Shown here: positions 2,173-52,800 of the stretch, piece by piece
Position numbering within the stretch: the stretch's first letter is position 1
How the letters are laid out: each line of letters opens with the position of its first letter
Assembly (NCBI GenBank): GCA_964019415.1
Contig: OZ025885.1
Span: forward strand, 4,428,620-4,492,619
Source: Ianthella basta
Taxonomy: Eukaryota; Porifera; Demospongiae; Verongiida; Ianthellidae
DNA length: 64,000 bases
Reading direction: 5' to 3'
Made by a program: the position numbers and the translations under genes
Notes under the pieces: model-generated
Told to the model about the DNA's origin: nothing
Databases searched by the model: none
The model's input: the letters and a program-made list of their open reading frames with translations, nothing else

Positions 2173-5100
2173 CTGATGGTTGAGAGTTTTAGACAGAACA
2201 ACAATAAATTATCATAATTTGATAGCATCATTAAATCAGCACATAAAGCATGCAATAGACATTGATGATATTTGACTATTGACAGACATTTACTGTACTC
2301 ACATTGTAAGAGACATCAGTACAAATGACCACTTACTACAAACACACTACACCACACATTTCAGCAGTCAGCAATCACAATGTGTACAGCATACACACAT
2401 ACAGTACTGCGCAGACTCACCATCAGCTGAGAAGTGATCACAAGAGAGGCATAGATAACCATCAAAGTCAAGTTGACACTGTGGATTGGCCTGGCACACC
2501 GCCTTTAAATGTGACAGGCCCTGAGCAGATAAACATTTGTATGTGTACAATGGCATATAAAGTCGCCTCAGGTGGGAGCACTGACTGAGGCAGTATGCAA
2601 TTGCCATTGTGTCAAAGGCGGAGAGAGAGAGGCTGAATGAAAGCGCAGATCGAATCTGTTTTGTCACTTTGCTGGTTAATGGGAGATTTTGTGATTCATA
2701 AAAAGCATGAAAGATGAAGAGAAGATGAGGCTTCGCATTGCTGCATTCATCCTCCTGCTCTCCAAATACCCAGTTCCGAAAAGTTTCCAAAATGGGCTCG
2801 TCGCGCGATTCCTTGATGGTGGATATGCAAAGCTGCTTGGCCACTTTCGGTACACTGAGACCAGTGAGGCCAGCATAGAATCGAAGGACGACAGAGAAGG
2901 AGATGTTTAAGAGATTCTTCTTCCAAAACCTCGCTTGCTCCTTAGGTGACAGATGACTCACATGGAGGGCAGCAAAGAACTCTTGCTGAGTGGCATGGGG
3001 AAAGGAGAAAGACAGAGAGGACTGATAGCCCTTCCGACTAGCATGAACATGCAGAAGACCCTTGAAGAGAGACTCATCAATGGGGGCACCCGGGGGGAGC
3101 TTAGGGAAGGCTGCACGAATGGAAGATTCATCAAAAACAAAACGAGGTGTGTTTTCGCAAAGACCATTATACGAAAGCCTGCCCAGTGATGACATGAGAT
3201 CATCAATATCTCTTGGGAGGTCCCTCAGAGTGGGATCAATGTGCACATCTCTTCCCTCTCTACTGCACTCACGAGAAATGGTGTGGGCCGCAAAGGCCTG
3301 GTAGCAGGCGGTCATTGTGGCAGGAAAACAGGAATCATGCTCAAAGACTGAGCAAAGGATGAAGCAATTCATAGGGATATACATTCCACCAAGCAGGTCA
3401 GGGCGGCTGGCCAGCTGTGACAGCATCCTGTCAGCAGCATGAGGGTTGGCCTCATAGAAGCTCTTCACATATAAAGTGATGGCATCATGATCAAAGCCTT
3501 GCACTTCGTAGAATGTGGCAGCATGGTCCTCTAGGGAAGGACAGGCACCAGGACGTGAAGAGATGAGAATATGGGCTTCAGGGAGAACACGTCCTTGAAT
3601 AAGGCTCAGAACAACAGATTCAGAATACAACTTCAGCAGATCATTCACTTCGTCTGCACCGTCAAACACCAGGAGAAGCCCCTTACCCTTGCTGTCCATT
3701 AATACCTTCACCAAACTGAAGACCTCTGCTGGGTCCTCATTCAGCATGTAGTAGCTCAGAAGGCTCTGGAGGCCACCTGCACTAGACACAGGTGTCTCTC
3801 GTAGTGGGAAGAACAGCACCAACTCATAATCACTTTCACCTTCTTCAGTGGAAAGCACCCTGCACATCTGTTTTAGCAGAGTGGTCTTCCCAGACCCAGC
3901 CTGACCATACACTACACGAATGCGCTCACTTCCTTTCTTGAGAAGGTCGACGGGTTTTATGTGTGACACTTTCTCCCCTGCTAATCTAGGACCACACTTC
4001 TTGAATCGTTTCATCACTTCCATTTTATCCTTTACATCCTTTGGGTGAGATGATGGTGGTCTCTCCAGCACAGCTAATTTAGTGTACTCTACAATCGACT
4101 TTGGACCTTCTCCCATTTTAAGCCGCTGGTACTCATCGTATGCTTGCTCCTTCAGCAGGGCAGCTTGTGGTGGGAGTCCAGTGCTGGTCACTGTGAGCTG
4201 TGAACAGGAGGGATAGGGAGAGCATGAAAGTACAAAATACCACATGTGCATTTGCACATGTTGCCATTTCGGCCAACCATTCTGAAATCGACTGTCACAG
4301 TACTTTCATGTACTTAGCCTATTCACCACAATATTGTCATATGCAACATACCACATGTGCATTTGCACATGTTGCCATTTTGGCCAACCATTCTGAAATC
4401 GACTGTCACAGTACTTTCATGTACTTAGCCTATTCACCACAATATTGTCATATGCAACATATCATTGCTTATACAGCCCCACAAGCTGTCTGGCTAGATT
4501 CATTCTCACAAGAGACAACTACAGGCATACTACTAACATTGTAGCACAATGTATTTGTTGCATACACATTCAACTAGTGACTCACACTCTCAGAGCCCTC
4601 AGGACCTCTTTTATACTTTCATGAATTATGAGGTGTGCACGGAATGTTGTCATTTCTGACTCAGCTCACTTAAGGCATTCCAATGAATCATATTCATTGT
4701 TTCAGGCTACATTGCTATGAATACAATTATCACACTGTAACTATCATGCATTCATTTCAATACCACAAGTCAGTCTCCGTGATCCAAGCAGTGAATACAA
4801 TAACAGTTTTGCATTTACAGTAGTGTGAACCAATCATTACATTACAGATTCCTAGTAGCTGCATGAGGGAGCCTGGGCCATGCTACTCAAAGGACATCAT
4901 TCAAACTGGTGCAACGACTCAGCTATTGATAGTTCTATGATGGCAGACGCTGCACAGAAAGACGTGAGCTATGCTATATACTGCATGGTGAGCAAACTGG
5001 CCACCATTCACCCAAAGCATTAACAACATACAATCTACACCTATTTTGAAACTAACACTGTAAGGCCCTCACTGAGAAAGCCTAAAGGATGGAAACCACA

Positions 5101-20752: not shown

Positions 20753-35337
<14,585 letters not shown>

Positions 35338-38980: not shown

Positions 38981-39472
38981 TCCTCTCACACAACTCAGTA
39001 GCTGTACTCACTCTTTCCCATTAACTGTACACATGAAAGTGAACGTGAACACGAATGCACCTTCATTGGAATGGCCCTATACCATGCTCACTAAAAACTA
39101 ATACACAACTGCATTGTAAACACACACATTCACACACGACATGGCATAGCAATTACAAACATGTGCACACACAAACATACACTAGCACACAACCACACAC
39201 AGGTGTATGCATGTTATGGAAGCAGCAAACAAAATGGCTGCCTGCAGACAGGGTTGGGTACAAGACTAGACTGTGATAGAATGGAACAGCTAAGTGGGAT
39301 GGACAGGAAGAGTTATGATGATGGTGCTTAGACGTTGCTACGCGAGAGATGCCATTTTAACATGACGTAATGAACGCTTTGGCTATATTAGTTCGCCTAA
39401 TTCTCCTTCAGATTTAGTTCAATATTCAAAAGTGACTCTTGCAGTTAGGCCCCTGCAAAGGCTAGGTTTGTT

Positions 39473-39824
39473 GCTTGAAGGATCACTGGGTTTACACCAC
39501 CAACCAACTACGCCAGTATTGGTGTTACAGTTGGTTGGGAGCAGCTATGCTGCTTCTATGTGTTGAAACCACAAGTGTTTTAGCTTGTGGTGGATACATA
39601 TGGAGGTGACATTCATCCTATTACCATCAGTATGCCACACTGATGAGCCCCAATTAGGGCGAAACAGCTGTCTGTGGCTCTTCCATCTTTGTAGGATGTT
39701 AGGGGGAAGGGAATCACTGGTTGCCAACTCACCAACTTAATAGGGCCTTTTGGGTCTCCCAACCAACTGTAACACCAATACTGGTGTAGTTGGTTGGTGG
39801 TGTAAACCCAGTGATCCTTCAAGC
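39473..39824. mobile_element. Fold-back element carrying a hammerhead ribozyme
   Basis: Inverted arms of 69 bp at 39473-39541 and 39756-39824 with one mismatch (words GCTTGAAGGATCACTGGG and CCCAGTGATCCTTCAAGC). The direct repeat TTAGTTCAATAT lies at 39414-39425 and 39825-39836: the right copy abuts the right arm, the left copy is 47 bp outside the left arm. So the inserted unit is probably 39426-39824. A 12-bp target duplication, a one-sided extension and an internal ribozyme resemble Penelope-like terminal units or retrozymes more than DNA-transposon MITEs. No protein is encoded. Confidence 0.85.
39634..39678 (+). ncRNA. Type I hammerhead ribozyme
   Basis: All core positions match the consensus. 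Stem I is GCCACA (39634-39639) with TGTGGC (39673-39678), six perfect pairs. The core CTGATGA is at 39640-39646. Stem II is GCCC (39647-39650) with GGGC (39657-39660) around a six-base loop CAATTA. GAA is at 39661-39663. Stem III is the self-complementary ACAGCTGT (39664-39671). The cleavage base is C39672, scission expected between 39672 and 39673. The loopless stem III is typical of animal type I hammerheads thought to work as dimers. Confidence 0.9.
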
Positions 39825-40134
39825 TTAGTTCAATATCCTAGCAACGCCGCCGCGGTCCAATTAGAGGTGCGTACGTTAGTATCCCTGGCCAAAGGTAGCT
39901 TGCGCACGGTTTGAAAGGCAATTGCGGTATTTCCCGCCATTTTCTAATTACTACACAGTTGGCTTCCGGTCACCTATTCCGTATTCTTTTCGGTAGATTT
40001 GCGCAGAATCTAGGTGCTAGCCCTCACCTTAAGGATTACAGAAATATGGTACAAATGCCTGCACCATTGCCCTATAGTTGAGACTAAGTGTGCTGCCTCA
40101 GCTTGGCTGCCCACTATAAAAAGTACAGAAACTA

Positions 40135-40390
40135 GAAATAATAAAAATTTTCTACAAAAATTGTAAGGATGTAGGGATGGCATAAAAAGGACAGAAGCAA
40201 GTAAAGGCTGCTACACAGTGGAGCATTAACCATTGTCCCTACATTCAGGGGTGTAGGACTATAGGGTGAGACATTCTTGCATGTAGGAACCATGGTTAAC
40301 ACTCCACTGTGTAACAGCCTTAACTTGTTTCTGTCCTTTTTATGCCATCCCTACATCCTTATAATTTTACAGAAAATTTTATTATTTGTA
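40135..40390. repeat. Fold-back repeat with arms of about 100 bp
   Basis: GGATGTAGGGATGGCATAAA at the left mirrors TTTATGCCATCCCTACATCC at the right. CACAGTGGAG mirrors CTCCACTGTG. The core includes CCCTACATTC. Probably a non-autonomous element; class unknown. Confidence 0.8.
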
Positions 40391-40766
40391 TATAGGATAA
40401 TTATAACGGGTTGAGGTTAAGATAGTCAATCTTATCACTTGAGGCCTATATATCTAGTAGCTAAGGCCAGTCCATATAATTATAATCCATACAGCTATAC
40501 AGGCCTGGGGGTATACTGGTTTATATTAAATGCATATAATGGCCATGGGACTGCACCTCATGCAGCTATATATATTCAATACATGCACACACACTACTAT
40601 AAATTATATAAAAAGTAGTATACTAGTACTGCATTAGCATGCATATGAGACTATATAATTATATACACCACATATAGTTATTACTTAATGATTATACCAT
40701 TAAATTGTACTAATGCCCACAAACGTATTATTGACATAATAATTAGTTAATAATTAGTAATATCAA

Positions 40767-43700
40767 ATGGCGGCAAAAATGGCGGCAGCACCGCATTGTC
40801 AATCTCAGTCCAATTCACGGTGCTGCCCCTGCATGAAGAATGGCCAATGTGTCAGATGCCTGTGCGTGAAGAATGGCAGACTTTATGTAGATTGCTGGCC
40901 GTCCACATCCCAGCCCAATCAATGTATGAACAAACCTGAGGTGGGTCACCAATCTACAGTGAATGGCACTACCGATCATCAGCCTGCCGTTGATCTACAA
41001 CCAGACACCGTTCCACCACCAGACACCGTTCATCAATTAGCCAGTGATCAACAACTTGATATCTCTACACAAGCTGACATTGAATCCCTGATTTCACACC
41101 TTAGCTCGCCGATTAGGACTGTGAAGCAAATACCTCGGCTCTCTAGAGTGACTGTCACAGGAAGGCTGGCCAATGTGATTAGGCAGGTCGTCTCTAGAAA
41201 CGATGTGTCCTCTTGGGTGGGATTGCTCTCCTTTTCCAAGAAATGTCTGCAAACACCTGTCAGAGGGGGTAAGCACTGGAGTTTGGCAACCCTGATCAAC
41301 CAGCAGGTGACCCAGGAACCGTCCACCGAGACACCTGCTACTCAGCCTCCCCAGCAAGTGAGACCACCCAAAAAGCACAACCAGATGGAGCAGCTGGCCT
41401 CCAGGGTCTCCAGTAAACTGGAAGAGGGTGATTACCGAGGGGTTGTCCGGCTGGCTTGCAGCGAGGATGCTATTGTAGAACCCAGTAGTGAGACCCTACA
41501 AGCCCTCAAAGCTAAGCATCCCCTGCCACCGCCTGACTCTGACATCCCTTCCTTGGAACACACATCACCACTTGCTTTCACCGTTGATACCCAAGTCATC
41601 ATGAGGGTAATCTCATCCTTCCCCAAAGGATCGAGTGGGGGCTTTGATGGCCTACTCCCCAACATCCCAAAGACCTTACAAGTCCATCAGCAGGTGATGG
41701 GGGCGCATCCCTCTTAACAGCCCTAGTAGGTCTTACCACACTGATTCTTGATGGCAGAACCCCCCCCCCCCCCCCCTCTATCCGCCCCTTCTTCTTTGGA
41801 GCAAATCTGACTGCCTTAACTAAGAAAAGTGGTGGTATTTGCCCAAATGCAGTAGGTTGCACTCTGAGAAGGCTTGCCTCAAATGTGCCAGCCTACATGC
41901 CCTCGAATCCATTCCCCAGACGTTGGCACCCCACCAGCTGGGTTTTGGAGTCGCGGGTGGCATTGAGATGGCTGTCCATGCCAGCCGAATTTACCTGAAT
42001 CACCTACCCCCCCCCCCCCCCCCCACCAAGCCATGGTAAAAGTAGATTTTACGAATGCATTCAACTCTCTACGTCGGGACAAAATGCTGAGAGCTGTCAA
42101 GGACCACATCCCAGATCTGCTGCCTTTCGTCCACTCAGCATACAGTTCTCCTTCCATCCTTTTGTGGAATGATGTGCAAGTGTCGTCTGCTGAGGGCATA
42201 CAGCAGGGGGACCCCTGGGCCCAATGCTGTTTTGCCTGGGTATTCACAACCTGGTATCCAGCCTGTCATTGGAATTCAGTGTTCTACCTTGACGATGGCA
42301 CAATTGGCAGGAGTTTTGAAGACATCGAATCAGACCTATTGAAAATTGAGAATCAGGGGAAGGCATTAAGGCTATTCCTACTTGTAGACAAGTCTGAAGT
42401 GCTGTCTCGCAGTGAGTCCTCAGTCAGCCTTGTTCTGACGCCTTTTCCAGGTCTGCAGTATGTTCATGCCTCCCATGCCATCTTGTTGGGTTCTCCCCTA
42501 GGGAAGGAGGCTCTGCAGGCTTGCATTGAGGAACAATGTCGCCAGTTGAAAGTGACCAGGGAACGACTTTGCCACCTCCAAATGCACGATGCCTACACTA
42601 TCCTGCGACACTTCCTTTCCATCCTGAAGGTCTTGCACATCTTACGAACGTCACAAGCCTTTTGTCCCCACTCCTTGAGTCTTGGGACCACCTTCTGGAG
42701 TCCATTGTTTTTAGGATCACCAACATTGATTTTGCTCAGGGAGACTCATGGCTCCAGGCAACCCTCCCTGTGAAATCAGGTGGCCTTGGGTTTTGAAGTG
42801 CCTCCACTCTTGCACCATCTGCCTTTTTGGCATCTGCTGGTGGGGCCTCAGACCTAATGCAGGAGCTTCTCCCCGACCACCTGTCATCTACCCCATACCT
42901 TGACAGGGACCTGGCTCTGTCTAGATGGAAACAGGCACTGCCTGAAGACACACTGGTCCCTTCTGCCGTAAATCGCCAGAAATCCTGGGACAGACCTGTA
43001 GTCCAGCACACGTTCAACACCCTTCTGGAGCACTGCACCAATGAGATCTCAAGATCATGGCTGCTTGGTGTCGGCTCATTCGAGTCTGGAGCATGGTTGA
43101 ACGCACCACCTATCTCCTAACTTGGTCTTCGCATGCCCAACGAGGCTATCCGTATTGCCATTGGTCTCAGAGTGGGCGCCTCCATATGCCTACCCCACTC
43201 CTGCAGCTTCTGTGGAGGACCTGTCGACAAGTTTGGCCTTCATGGTCTGAGCTGCAGGATGAGCCAAGGCAGAATCCCTCGCCATCAGATGCTTAAATAA
43301 CACCATCTACCACTCGTTAGCTTCAGCCAACATCCCCAGCAGACTTGAACCATCTGGCCTTCACAGAGCTGATGGGAAGCGCCCAGATGGTGTTACCCTC
43401 ATCCCATGGACGGAGGGAAAATTCTTCATGTGGGGCGCAACATGCGTGGACTCCTTTTGTGACTCCTGCATTCTGGGATTGTCCAGGGAAGCGGGAGGGG
43501 CTGCAGCCGCAGCAGAGAAGAACAAGTACGCCCACCATGACAGCTAGGTCCTATGTATACCAGCCTATTGCAGTGGAAACCTGCGGCACAATAGGTCCAG
43601 ATTCATTGAGTTTCCTCCGAAACCTAGGCCGCAGGCTGAAGTCAACCACAGGGGAGCCTCAGTCTTTCACATACCTGCTCCAGCGACTATCCATGGCTAT

Positions 43701-49800: not shown

Positions 49801-52800
49801 TTGCTAACTAATACTTATATGACACTAGCATGATAGGAGGACACCCACTATCGTATTACAATAGTTTTGTACTATAGCAATAATAGCATAATTGGCGTGA
49901 ATATTACACTAGCAACAATCGTGATAGCATAATTGATAGTTAGTGTGTACTGTGTGTGTAGGCAAAATGCCATTGCTGTACAAAACAATCATGTACTTGC
50001 CTTCACATCACTACGGACAGTGACATCCAACTCCTTCACTCCAGGGAGGCTGCAAACAGTGGAGAGTGCCACACAGTCTGTGTGGGATACACTCAGGACT
50101 AACTTCTCCAATGACACTGCTACTTGAGACAGTGTCTGGGCATCTGATGGTTGAGAGTTGTAGACAGAACAACAATAAAATTATTACAATTCATAAGATC
50201 ATTAAAATCATCACATTATTCAACAATTATGCAACAGACATAGGTCATATTTGACTATTGACAGACGTCTACTGTATTCACATTGTAAGAGACATCTGTA
50301 CAAATGAACACTTACTACAAACACACTACACCACACATTTCAGCAGTCAGCAGTCACAATGTGTACATACATATAGTACTGCACAGACTCACCATCAGAT
50401 GAGAAGTCATCATAATAGAGGGGTGGTGTACCTATAAGCTGACATTGTGAGTTGGCCTGGAGCACTGCCTTTAAATGTGCCATGCATTGAGCGGACAAAA
50501 GCCTGCATCTGTGCGATGACATATAAAGTTGCCTCAGATGGGAGCATTGACTGAGGCAGTACGCAATTGACATTGTGTCAAAGGCTGAGAGAGACAGGCG
50601 GAATGAAAGCGTAGATCGAATCTGTTTCATGACTTCGCTGGTTAAGGGGAGATTTTGCGATTCGTAAAAAGCATGAAAGACGAAGAGAAGATGAGGCTTC
50701 TCATTGCTGCATGTATCCTCCTGCCCTACCCAATTCAGAAAAGCATAGAAAAGAGGTCCATCACGCGACTCCTTGATGGAGGATGTGCAGAGCTGCTTGG
50801 CCACTTTGGGAACACTGAGACCAGTGAGGCCAGCATAGAATCGAAAAACGACAGAGAAGGAGATGTTAGAAAGATTCTTCTTCCAAAATCTCTCTTGCTC
50901 CTTAGGTGGTAGACGACTCACATGGAGGGCAGCAAAGAACTCTTGCTGCGTGGCATGGGGGAAGGAGAAGGACAGAGAGGACTGGTAGCCCTTCCGACTG
51001 GCATGAACATGCAGAAGACCCTTGAAGAGAGACTCATCAATGGGGGCACCCAGGGGGAGCTTAGGGAAGGCTGCACGAATGGAAGACTCGTCGAAAACAA
51101 AACGAGGTGGGTTTTCACAAAGACCATTATACGAAAGCCTGCCCAGTGATGACATGAGATCATCAACATCTCTTGGGAGGTCCCTCAGAGTGGGATCGAT
51201 GTGCACTTTTCTTCCCTCTCTACTGCACTCACGAGAAATGGTGTGGGCTGTGAAGGCCTGGTAGCAGGCGGTCATTGTGGCAGGGAAAGTGGAATCGTGC
51301 TCAAAGATTGAACAAAGGATGAAGCTATTCATGGGGATATACATCCCACCAAGCAGGTCAGGGCGGCTGGCTAGCTGTGACAGCATCCTGTCAGCAGCAT
51401 GAGGGTTGGCCTCAAAGAAGCTCTTCATGTACAAAGTGATGGCATCATGATCAAAGCCCTGCACTTCATAGAATGTGGCAGTGTGGTCCTGTAGAGAGGG
51501 ACAGGCACCAGGACGTGAAGAGATGATGATATGGGCTTCAGGAAGAACACATCCTTGAAGAAGGCTCTGAACAAGGGATTTATTGGACAGCTTCAGCAGA
51601 TCATTCACCTCATCAGCACCATCAAACACCAGGAGAAGCCCCTTACCCTTGCTGATCTTTGACACCTTCACCAAACTGGAGATCTCTGTTGGGTCCTCAT
51701 CATGCATGTAGTAGCTCAGAAGGCTCTGGAGGTCACCTGCACTGGACACATCTGGATCTCGTAGTGGGAAGAACAGCACCAACTCATAATCACTTACACC
51801 CTCCTTAGTGGAAAGTGCCTTGCACATGTGTTTTAGCAGAGTGGTCTTCCCAGACCCAGCATGACCATAAATTACACGAATGCGCTCGCTGCCCTTCTTG
51901 AGAAGGTCAACAGGTTTTATGTGTGACGCTTTCTCCCTTGCCAACTTAGAGCCACACTCCTTGAATCGTTGGATCGCTTCCATTTTACTCTTGACATCCT
52001 CTGGTTTAGATGACGGTGGCCTCTCCAGCACAGCTAATTTAGTGTACTCTACATTCGCTTTTGGACCTTCTCCCAGTTTAAACTGTCGGTACTGGTCGTA
52101 TGCTTGCTCCTTCAGCAGGGCAGTTTGTGGTGGGAGCTCAGTGCTGGTTACTGTGAGCTGTGGACAGGAGGGAGAGGGAGACTGACACATATATGAAGAA
52201 TGGAAGTAACAAAATACCACATGTGCAGTACGTGTGTTGTGCAGATTACAGCAAGGGGGGTGAATGCCCTCTCCCCCCTCATACTCATTAATGCATTCCT
52301 GCCACCTATCTATAGCATACATACAGTTCAAGGGTAAATGTACAGTACAAACACATTCATTGCTTAGTAAGACTTCTGCTATGAATACACTTATCACACC
52401 AAATGTCATGCACATTATTTCTGTTCTCAATTTCCCACTCGACTGTACATTACTGGAAACTAAACGCGAACAGTGGTGCCCTTACAATAGCGGGAATGGC
52501 CAGGTATGCCCTCTGGGGGTAGTGGAAAAGGTCTGGGCTACGTGACTTAAATAACATTAATCAAATTGGTGGATGGATTGACTTAATCATTGAAAGACCA
52601 GCAAACTTAACAAGCAATGAGAACTGAATGTAGCATAATTATGGTGACAGGTGACCCTCGCCCAGCATAAAATTGCATTATTAGGCTCTTACTTCATTCA
52701 TTTAAAAAGCATTGTTTAGCACTAGCACCAACGTCTTTACGGCAGGATAGTAGAAGACTACAAGATGACAGCATTTATAAAAACTGTAGATTCTGTGAGA

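Follow-up and report, generated by a model that had tools for sequence, protein, structure and literature searches.

The analyzed stretch of Ianthella basta DNA (64 kb; hereafter, the window) contains a 399-bp insertion at positions 39426-39824 that is flanked by 12-bp direct repeats, TTAGTTCAATAT. The insertion consists of two head-to-head arms, both derived from a 374-nt unit that is repeated in the host genome. The features are listed below, with phases counted along this unit from the first base after the hammerhead cut (phase 1), and with T1 and T2 denoting the shorter and the longer 3' end of the element, respectively.

39414-39425, no strand: left copy of the target-site duplication, TTAGTTCAATAT (exact 12-bp repeat abutting the element)
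39426-39541, minus strand: left cDNA arm, unit phases 199 down to 84, with the longer 3' end (T2) as its outer end (phase mapping and base-level comparison with an observed unit)
39473-39541, no strand: the portion of the left arm complementary to the right arm, phases 152-84
39542-39545, no strand: 4-nt filler CAGC at the inner head-to-head junction (base-level comparison)
39546-39824, plus strand: right cDNA arm, phases 248-374 and then 1-152, with the shorter 3' end (T1) as its outer end (phase mapping and base-level comparison)
39634-39678, plus strand: type I hammerhead, predicted cleavage 39672/39673 (RF00163, 40.1 bits; fold)
39756-39824, no strand: the matching portion of the right arm
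39825-39836, no strand: right copy of the target-site duplication, TTAGTTCAATAT (exact 12-bp repeat abutting the element)

A sequence-only reading of the same DNA had described a 352-bp fold-back unit with 69-bp inverted arms, in a form other than the usual tandem one of retrozymes. The inverted arms are present and 99% complementary; they represent phases 84-152, which are common to both cDNA arms of this copy. The insertion is longer than that reading assumed because the left arm, which is 98% identical to the unit (over its k-mer bounds), continues to the longer 3' end. The apparent fold-back is a pair of head-to-head, 5'-truncated cDNA arms ending at different unit phases rather than a pair of terminal inverted repeats. 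Each arm is shorter than one unit and the copy carries a single hammerhead, so its own transcript could be cut at most once and would be predicted to release no unit circle alone.

The covariance search by which the sequence-only reading proposed to check its hammerhead was run with Rfam cmscan over the entire window, on both strands, with 4227 families. The sole match at the gathering threshold was Hammerhead_1 (RF00163) at 39634-39678 of the plus strand (40.1 bits against a threshold of 34, E 1e-6, model positions 1-45 complete). With this score and the CTGATGA, GAA and C of the core all intact, the consensus type I hammerhead is borne out. Self-cleavage would occur between 39672 and 39673, the predicted place being the one named earlier. 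The minimum-energy structure of 39612-39704 (z -2.14) contains two of the three stems that had been claimed, stem I, extended past an internal loop by CATCCTA/TAGGATG, and stem II; stem III is absent from this free fold, where CUG pairs with the core CAG instead.

The surroundings of the insertion include a second hairpin at 40157-40368, about 330 bp beyond the retrozyme, with 98-nt inverted arms that are 88% complementary and 16 nt apart. Three long frames, 2368-4305, 29052-31181 and 50340-52481 (minus), look alike by eye; the first of these, the only one of the three that was scanned, contains a NACHT domain, and the three may thus form a cluster of NLR-type immune receptor genes. The open frames 31031-32917 and 40761-42773 resemble decayed reverse transcriptase (RT) genes, and among the four stretches scanned, only 41967-42773 reaches the RVT_1 profile (E 9e-4, below the curated cut-off).

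A search of the host genome (209 Mb in 96 contigs) with the window element as the query covered the best 40 of 812 candidate places, so that the sample leans to complete copies, and yielded 214 matches. Many of the matches are spaced 374 bp apart in tandem, and a minus-sense array often faces a plus-sense array. For this family (hereafter, family A), 38 places besides the window copy were collected, some of which duplicate one another. One observed unit of L042, identical in 374 of 374 positions to the neighboring unit, served as the reference; the unit has a G+C content of 48%. Duplicates were removed by dropping L069 (flanks identical to those of L068), L055 (same insertion as L054), the second copy in L062 (a mirror duplicate) and L052 (left flank identical to that of L040), and the resulting set was used for end phases, target duplications, core conservation, subfamily letters, arm lengths and reading through the cut site. 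The divergence comparison left out only the L062 mirror copy and L069, and the counts of arm lengths and inner ends additionally omit L045, L061 and L064, the arms of which are broken into pieces.

The deduplicated set comprises 36 family-A insertions, 28 of them two-armed and eight one-armed. Mapping of strand and phase reveals a recurrent plan in which two head-to-head arms both have an element 3' end as their outer end and each arm extends over 0.2 to 3.2 units in tandem (58 arms, 65 to 1194 nt long; maximum 3.19 units). The supposed departure from the tandem retrozyme form does not hold for the family, which makes tandem arrays of the 374-nt unit: 31 of the 58 arms are longer than one unit. 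A unit in the range of about 150-450 nt with a type I hammerhead, multiple copies and tandem units are the features of metazoan non-LTR retrozymes. The element belongs to a dispersed family of non-LTR retrozymes, a kind already known. The relation to retrozymes and to Penelope-like elements (PLEs) suggested in the sequence-only reading holds, that to PLEs through an insertion scar of the PLE type, and the interpretation given there is, as a whole, partly supported.

Intact cores are present in 66 of the 68 full hammerhead units, and nine of the 36 insertions carry at least two intact hammerheads in one arm. Of 396 site-by-insertion cells in the core, 3 are altered, all of them from the decayed L064, compared to 299 of 11434 outside the hammerhead. 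It is only these 11 core positions that are less variable: with stems and loops included, the hammerhead (51 of 1800 changed) varies no less than the rest of the unit. The intact cores would fit a ribozyme that is needed in the replication cycle, in a sample that leans to complete copies.

The outer ends of the insertions fall at two fixed positions of the unit. In all 28 two-armed family-A insertions, one outer end is T1 (phases 149-159, median 156) and the other is T2 (phases 193-205, median 202); were the ends independent at even odds, this outcome would have a probability of 3.7e-9. The interval between them, or 'tail', has a median of 46 nt (range 35-55), somewhat above the published 30-40 nt of PLEs. 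The inner junction phases, unlike the outer ends, are scattered. Both end sequences, ..AAGCAACAAAC.. at T1 and ..TTGAACAACC.. at T2 (also read out as ..TTCAAGCAACAAAC.. and ..CACTTTTGAACAACC.., respectively), are A/C-rich.

Taken as the longest stretch of exact identity close to the ends, target duplications reach 9 nt or more in 39 of 44 insertions (32 of 36 in family A and 7 of 8 in the second family described below), and 30 of these are 12-14 nt long. As a control, each left flank was paired with right flanks from the other members of its family, and matches of at least 9 nt were found in 27 of 1316 pairs. The match falls short of 9 nt in L043, L046, L049 (8 nt) and L056, that is, 4 of the 36 family-A insertions, and in L006; in L076, the counted 11-nt match lies inside the element, and the abutting repeat is 9 nt. 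Among the 25 duplications tallied by letter (the 28 two-armed copies without L040, L043 and L049), written with T1 on the left, 19 start with A (12 of them with AC) and 18 have T at the end, so both primers tend to finish in T. Such primers could pair with the A/C-rich start sites, although the border letters may belong to either side.

The same layout recurs in a second retrozyme family. Eight loci were taken from the Rfam search of the genome, one of which belongs to family A (L004) and six to family B (L001, L002, L003, L005, L006 and L007), which has a 368-nt unit that is most similar to that of family A in and around the hammerhead. A search with family B returned 128 matches from the best 40 of 922 candidates. 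Of the 12 loci examined, seven insertions have both ends readable; L078 duplicates L077, the ends of L001 and L005 are readable only in part, and L006 (one unreadable end, flanks in common with L007) and L008 (no match) were left out. In all seven, the ends fall at phases 144-152 on one side and 185-195 on the other, the duplications are 13-15 nt long, and both sites, ..CTCTATCAACC.. and ..CCTCTTAACAACC.., are again A/C-rich. A short hairpin is predicted between the two sites in each family (TTGCAG..CTGCAA in A, AGCAGT..ACTGCT in B); T2 itself is predicted to lie in a hairpin loop in family A and to be unpaired in family B, for which the AC-rich hairpin is absent from the prediction. The eighth locus, L008 (G000 C2:6408432-6408485), contains a third kind of hammerhead that scores above the Rfam cut-off and has CTGAAGA in its core; at the settings used, no repeat of at least 40 nt was found in its 3-kb locus.

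The arms also bear on the RNA from which they were copied. In each of the 36 family-A insertions, an arm that contains a whole hammerhead continues through the cut site; together with the 31 of 58 arms that exceed one unit, this reading through indicates that the template was something other than a cleaved linear monomer. The length of the arms, up to 3.2 units across the cleavage site, favors a circular or multimeric template, and a circle is the simplest reading of these arms. At subfamily-diagnostic positions, opposite arms of one insertion agree in 406 comparisons and disagree in 13 (13 of 419), and units within an arm agree in 253 and disagree in 9, compared to the 36% disagreement expected for random units, with the qualification that these sites are linked and the comparisons are not independent. 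Mean divergence is 0.9% within arms, 1.1% between arms and 2.4% between insertions. The agreement of the arms supports a common template or a common subfamily; gene conversion between the arms could homogenize them as well. Substitutions private to an insertion were considered as proof of a single template and give none (one is present in all units, eight in some and 90 in a single unit), so only the subfamily letters were used for this purpose.

Two further patterns concern the extent and composition of the template. Inner ends fall at phases 130-159 in 18 of 58 arms compared to 4.7 expected, for a phase window chosen after looking; these ends would lie about whole laps from T1, and the stem entered there could equally stop the enzyme. 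In both arms of L047, the outermost unit lacks an 8-nt deletion that the next unit inward carries, which hints at a template of two unlike units.

We compared these scars with the ends of PLEs from the same genome. Of 176 candidates for the GIY-YIG nuclease profile, 150 were scored and gave 55 matches, including 15 neighboring pairs within 5 kb, of which 13 are head-to-head, none is tail-to-tail and two are in tandem. One such PLE, on contig C14, encodes an RT (PF00078, E 3.1e-9) and a GIY-YIG domain (E 1.1e-6) in its left arm and a GIY-YIG domain in its right arm, with a 99.4% match between the arms over 792 bp. It is flanked by a 12-bp duplication, TTGAACAGTTAA, as is a PLE insertion on contig C18, with TTCTACGTAGAT; each of these two insertions has a right arm that extends 37 nt further at the 3' end, and the two end points agree. 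A genome search with the PLE 3' end, limited to the best 40 of 230 candidates, returned 47 matches (19 short, 26 long and two unclassed); the query was cut at the longer 3' end, so still longer ends are invisible in this search. Of 13 head-to-head pairs, 12 combine one short and one longer end, one has an unclassed end and none has two alike, a count from which two further pairings, on C4 and C17, were left out as they re-use an end of a counted pair. The retrozyme tail of 46 nt compares with 37 nt in the PLE family examined, and by eye the two tails are unlike in sequence. The Rfam search of four GIY-YIG loci (L083-L086) at E up to 0.5 detected no hammerhead, a result of little weight given the minimal hammerheads of PLEs and the 5' truncation of the C14 copy. 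The window element is not itself a PLE, its 399-bp insertion and 374-nt unit being too short for an RT and a GIY-YIG domain.

Taken as a whole, the layout is the published 'tail' signature of PLEs: two discrete 3' ends separated by a tail, with target duplications. The purified Anolis PLE protein has been reported to cleave and extend both target strands, and to begin reverse transcription at two internal, neighboring sites of an AC-rich stem-loop (PMC11167929). The interval between these start sites corresponds to an optional genomic 'tail' of 30-40 nt that is described there as unique to PLEs; in vitro, the strands did not differ in their use of the start sites, and hammerhead mutants had no effect on insertion (PMC11167929). 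Rotifer PLE copies, in the description of PMC3846280, have an inverted second end, a 31-bp tail that is optional on one inverted end, and duplications of 8-10 bp. The retrozymes reported here resemble Poseidon/Penelope-type PLEs in their head-to-head copies, the duplications (about 8-12 bp in PLEs), the two 3' ends separated by a tail that is optional at one inverted end, the A/C-rich start sites and the hammerhead upstream of these sites (PMC11167929, PMC3846280); they differ from them in the 374-nt unit, too short for a PLE protein, and in the 46-nt tail. The hammerhead described here matches the full type I model, whereas those of PLEs are described as minimal (PMC7761336).

We conclude, with a probability of roughly 80%, that the insertion in the window is a truncated copy of a 374-nt hammerhead retroelement (a non-LTR retrozyme of the metazoan type) that was moved by the PLE machinery. 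The genome carries the footprint of a double-strand cut, priming at two sites, a gap-fill duplication and synthesis over multiple laps. We infer hammerhead activity, circularization, a PLE protein as the enzyme and an order of events as follows. Tandem arrays would be transcribed, and the hammerheads would cut the RNA into 374-nt units that would then be closed as circles. A PLE protein with RT and GIY-YIG domains would cut both target strands about 12 bp apart, and on the retrozyme RNA, each freed 3' end would prime reverse transcription at an A/C-rich start site of its own, near phase 156 (T1) for one end and near phase 202 (T2) for the other. The enzymes would travel 0.2 to 3.2 times round the template, the two cDNAs would be joined head to head, and gap filling would duplicate the target of about 12 bp.

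A broader proposal, for which we would offer slightly less than even odds, is that animal retrozymes parasitize PLEs, with the RNA circle as the direct template of target-primed reverse transcription (TPRT) and a PLE dimer acting on one circle, where each strand would take a different start site and rolling-circle extension would produce head-to-head multimers. Two protomers bound to one RNA molecule would explain why every classed insertion uses one site of each kind (28 of 28 in family A, 7 of 7 in family B and 12 of 12 classed PLE pairs). Hammerhead circles would, if indeed the template, clearly exemplify rolling-circle TPRT in a form readable from ordinary genome assemblies.

Animal retrozymes were described previously as tandem repeats that give rise to circular RNA; both LINEs and PLEs were considered as helpers, and PLEs were favored, on circumstantial grounds, as the source of the enzyme (PMC7229834). 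The shared, unusual scar provides a direct and testable link on this point. The retrozymes of that survey (Cervera and de la Pena 2020, PMC7229834) are similar to those of I. basta in the type I hammerhead, the unit of about 170-400 nt, the tandem copies and the presence of several families per genome. The sponge elements differ from them in that 28 of the 36 family-A insertions are head-to-head, with two fixed 3' ends and duplications mostly of 12-14 nt, and in that the G+C content of the unit exceeds the <45% given there; in the main text of PMC7229834, the terms 'inverted' and 'target site' have no occurrences. The Schistosoma W-elements (PMC8490949) are likewise satellite-like, some with type I hammerheads, and internal inverted repeats are mentioned for them; a duplication flanking W25.2 was noted as possibly that of a target site. 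The passages of PMC8490949 on these repeats mention neither two fixed 3' ends nor head-to-head arms, and its text does not use the word retrozyme. Plant LTR retrozymes (PMC4918200) are also non-autonomous and hammerhead-bearing, with a proposed circular RNA intermediate, but their hammerheads are of type III and located in LTRs, and they have PBS and PPT features (summarized in PMC7229834).

A literature search, with supplements and subscription papers outside its reach, returned no description of the two-end, head-to-head layout in retrozymes. Within the same search, the combination of hammerhead ribozyme, head-to-head and retrotransposon gave nothing, that of retrozyme and target-primed reverse transcription gave, judging by titles, only work on LTR elements, and that of twin priming and Penelope gave nothing on this layout. 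What is new here is the integration scar that ties retrozymes to PLEs, which both retrozyme families share with PLEs of this genome, together with the use of one of each of the two start sites in every classed case of the sample. A tail on one of two inverted PLE ends had already been described (PMC3846280); the addition is that each classed two-ended insertion of this sample, in PLEs and in both retrozyme families, has exactly one tailed end, whereas the strands did not differ in start site with the purified enzyme (PMC11167929).

Several other routes to inverted arms have to be weighed against PLE-mediated insertion. The 69-bp arms, 99% matching in inverted orientation, and the direct repeats at the ends of the window copy could be those of a fold-back or MITE-like DNA transposon with terminal inverted repeats, in which the hammerhead occurs by chance. 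Both outer ends of such an element should be the same terminus inverted, and we reject this explanation, which is extremely improbable, because the outer ends differ in phase in 28 of 28 two-armed copies. The variable inner ends and arm lengths, the one-armed copies with duplications (L053, L057, L063 and L075) and the tandem units that make up the long arms also count against it. An inverted repeat would equally be produced if a single cDNA folded back and primed its own copying, the snap-back suggested for bdelloid PLEs (PMC3846280). The small palindrome around CAGC at the window junction would suit this mechanism, as would the 3 of 25 two-armed copies in which the inner ends lie within 5 nt of each other in phase. 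With only these three so placed, it was rejected as the main route and appears improbable: in the other 22, the inner ends of the two arms are 33-186 nt apart, so that a fold-back copy would need a later deletion, and snap-back would not be expected to arrive regularly at another fixed start site at a distance of 46 nt.

It is quite improbable, too, that a LINE of the APE or RLE type copies the retrozyme by ordinary TPRT with L1-like twin priming. Target duplications of about 12 bp occur with LINEs as well, and in L1 twin priming, both target strands prime synthesis, resulting in an inverted junction; moreover, the genome is rich in RT genes (3653 RVT_1 candidates, of which the best 150 were scored, a figure that shows only that such genes are many). 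However, L1-type twin priming starts the first strand from the tail and the second from variable internal positions, whereas both starts here are fixed and A/C-rich, lie 46 nt apart and are used as T1 at one end and T2 at the other, and a comparison of retrozyme and PLE ends reveals the same two-end layout on PLEs of this genome. A last variant retains the remainder of the PLE model and replaces the circles by linear, uncleaved multimers transcribed from genomic arrays. The use of unprocessed RNA by the PLE in vitro, with insertion unaffected by hammerhead mutations (PMC11167929), would agree with such templates, and the L047 deletion in the second, not the outermost, unit of both arms fits a template of unlike units. 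We nevertheless consider this variant less likely than not, given that multimers with intact cores in 66 of 68 units should self-cleave and that 18 of 58 arms stop at phases 130-159, approximately whole laps after T1, although pausing at the stem might also explain these stops.

Some family-A loci bear traces of other changes in the host DNA. The insertions in L054 and L055, which are located about 74 kb and about 69 kb from opposite ends of contig C15 (G000), represent one retrozyme insertion, identical in junction and letters, in opposite orientation. This insertion sits inside a satellite-like repeat, suggesting exchange between chromosome ends, and similar flanking repeats are found in L041, L042, L045 and L059. 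L062 (G000 C4:3406600-3409400) holds two mirror-image copies of its insertion and flanks, separated by about 0.5 kb, which appear to be a host palindrome that arose after the insertion. Finally, an 8-nt deletion between CCAACTT repeats, within phases 49-59, recurs in some units of L047, L064 and L043, other units being without it.
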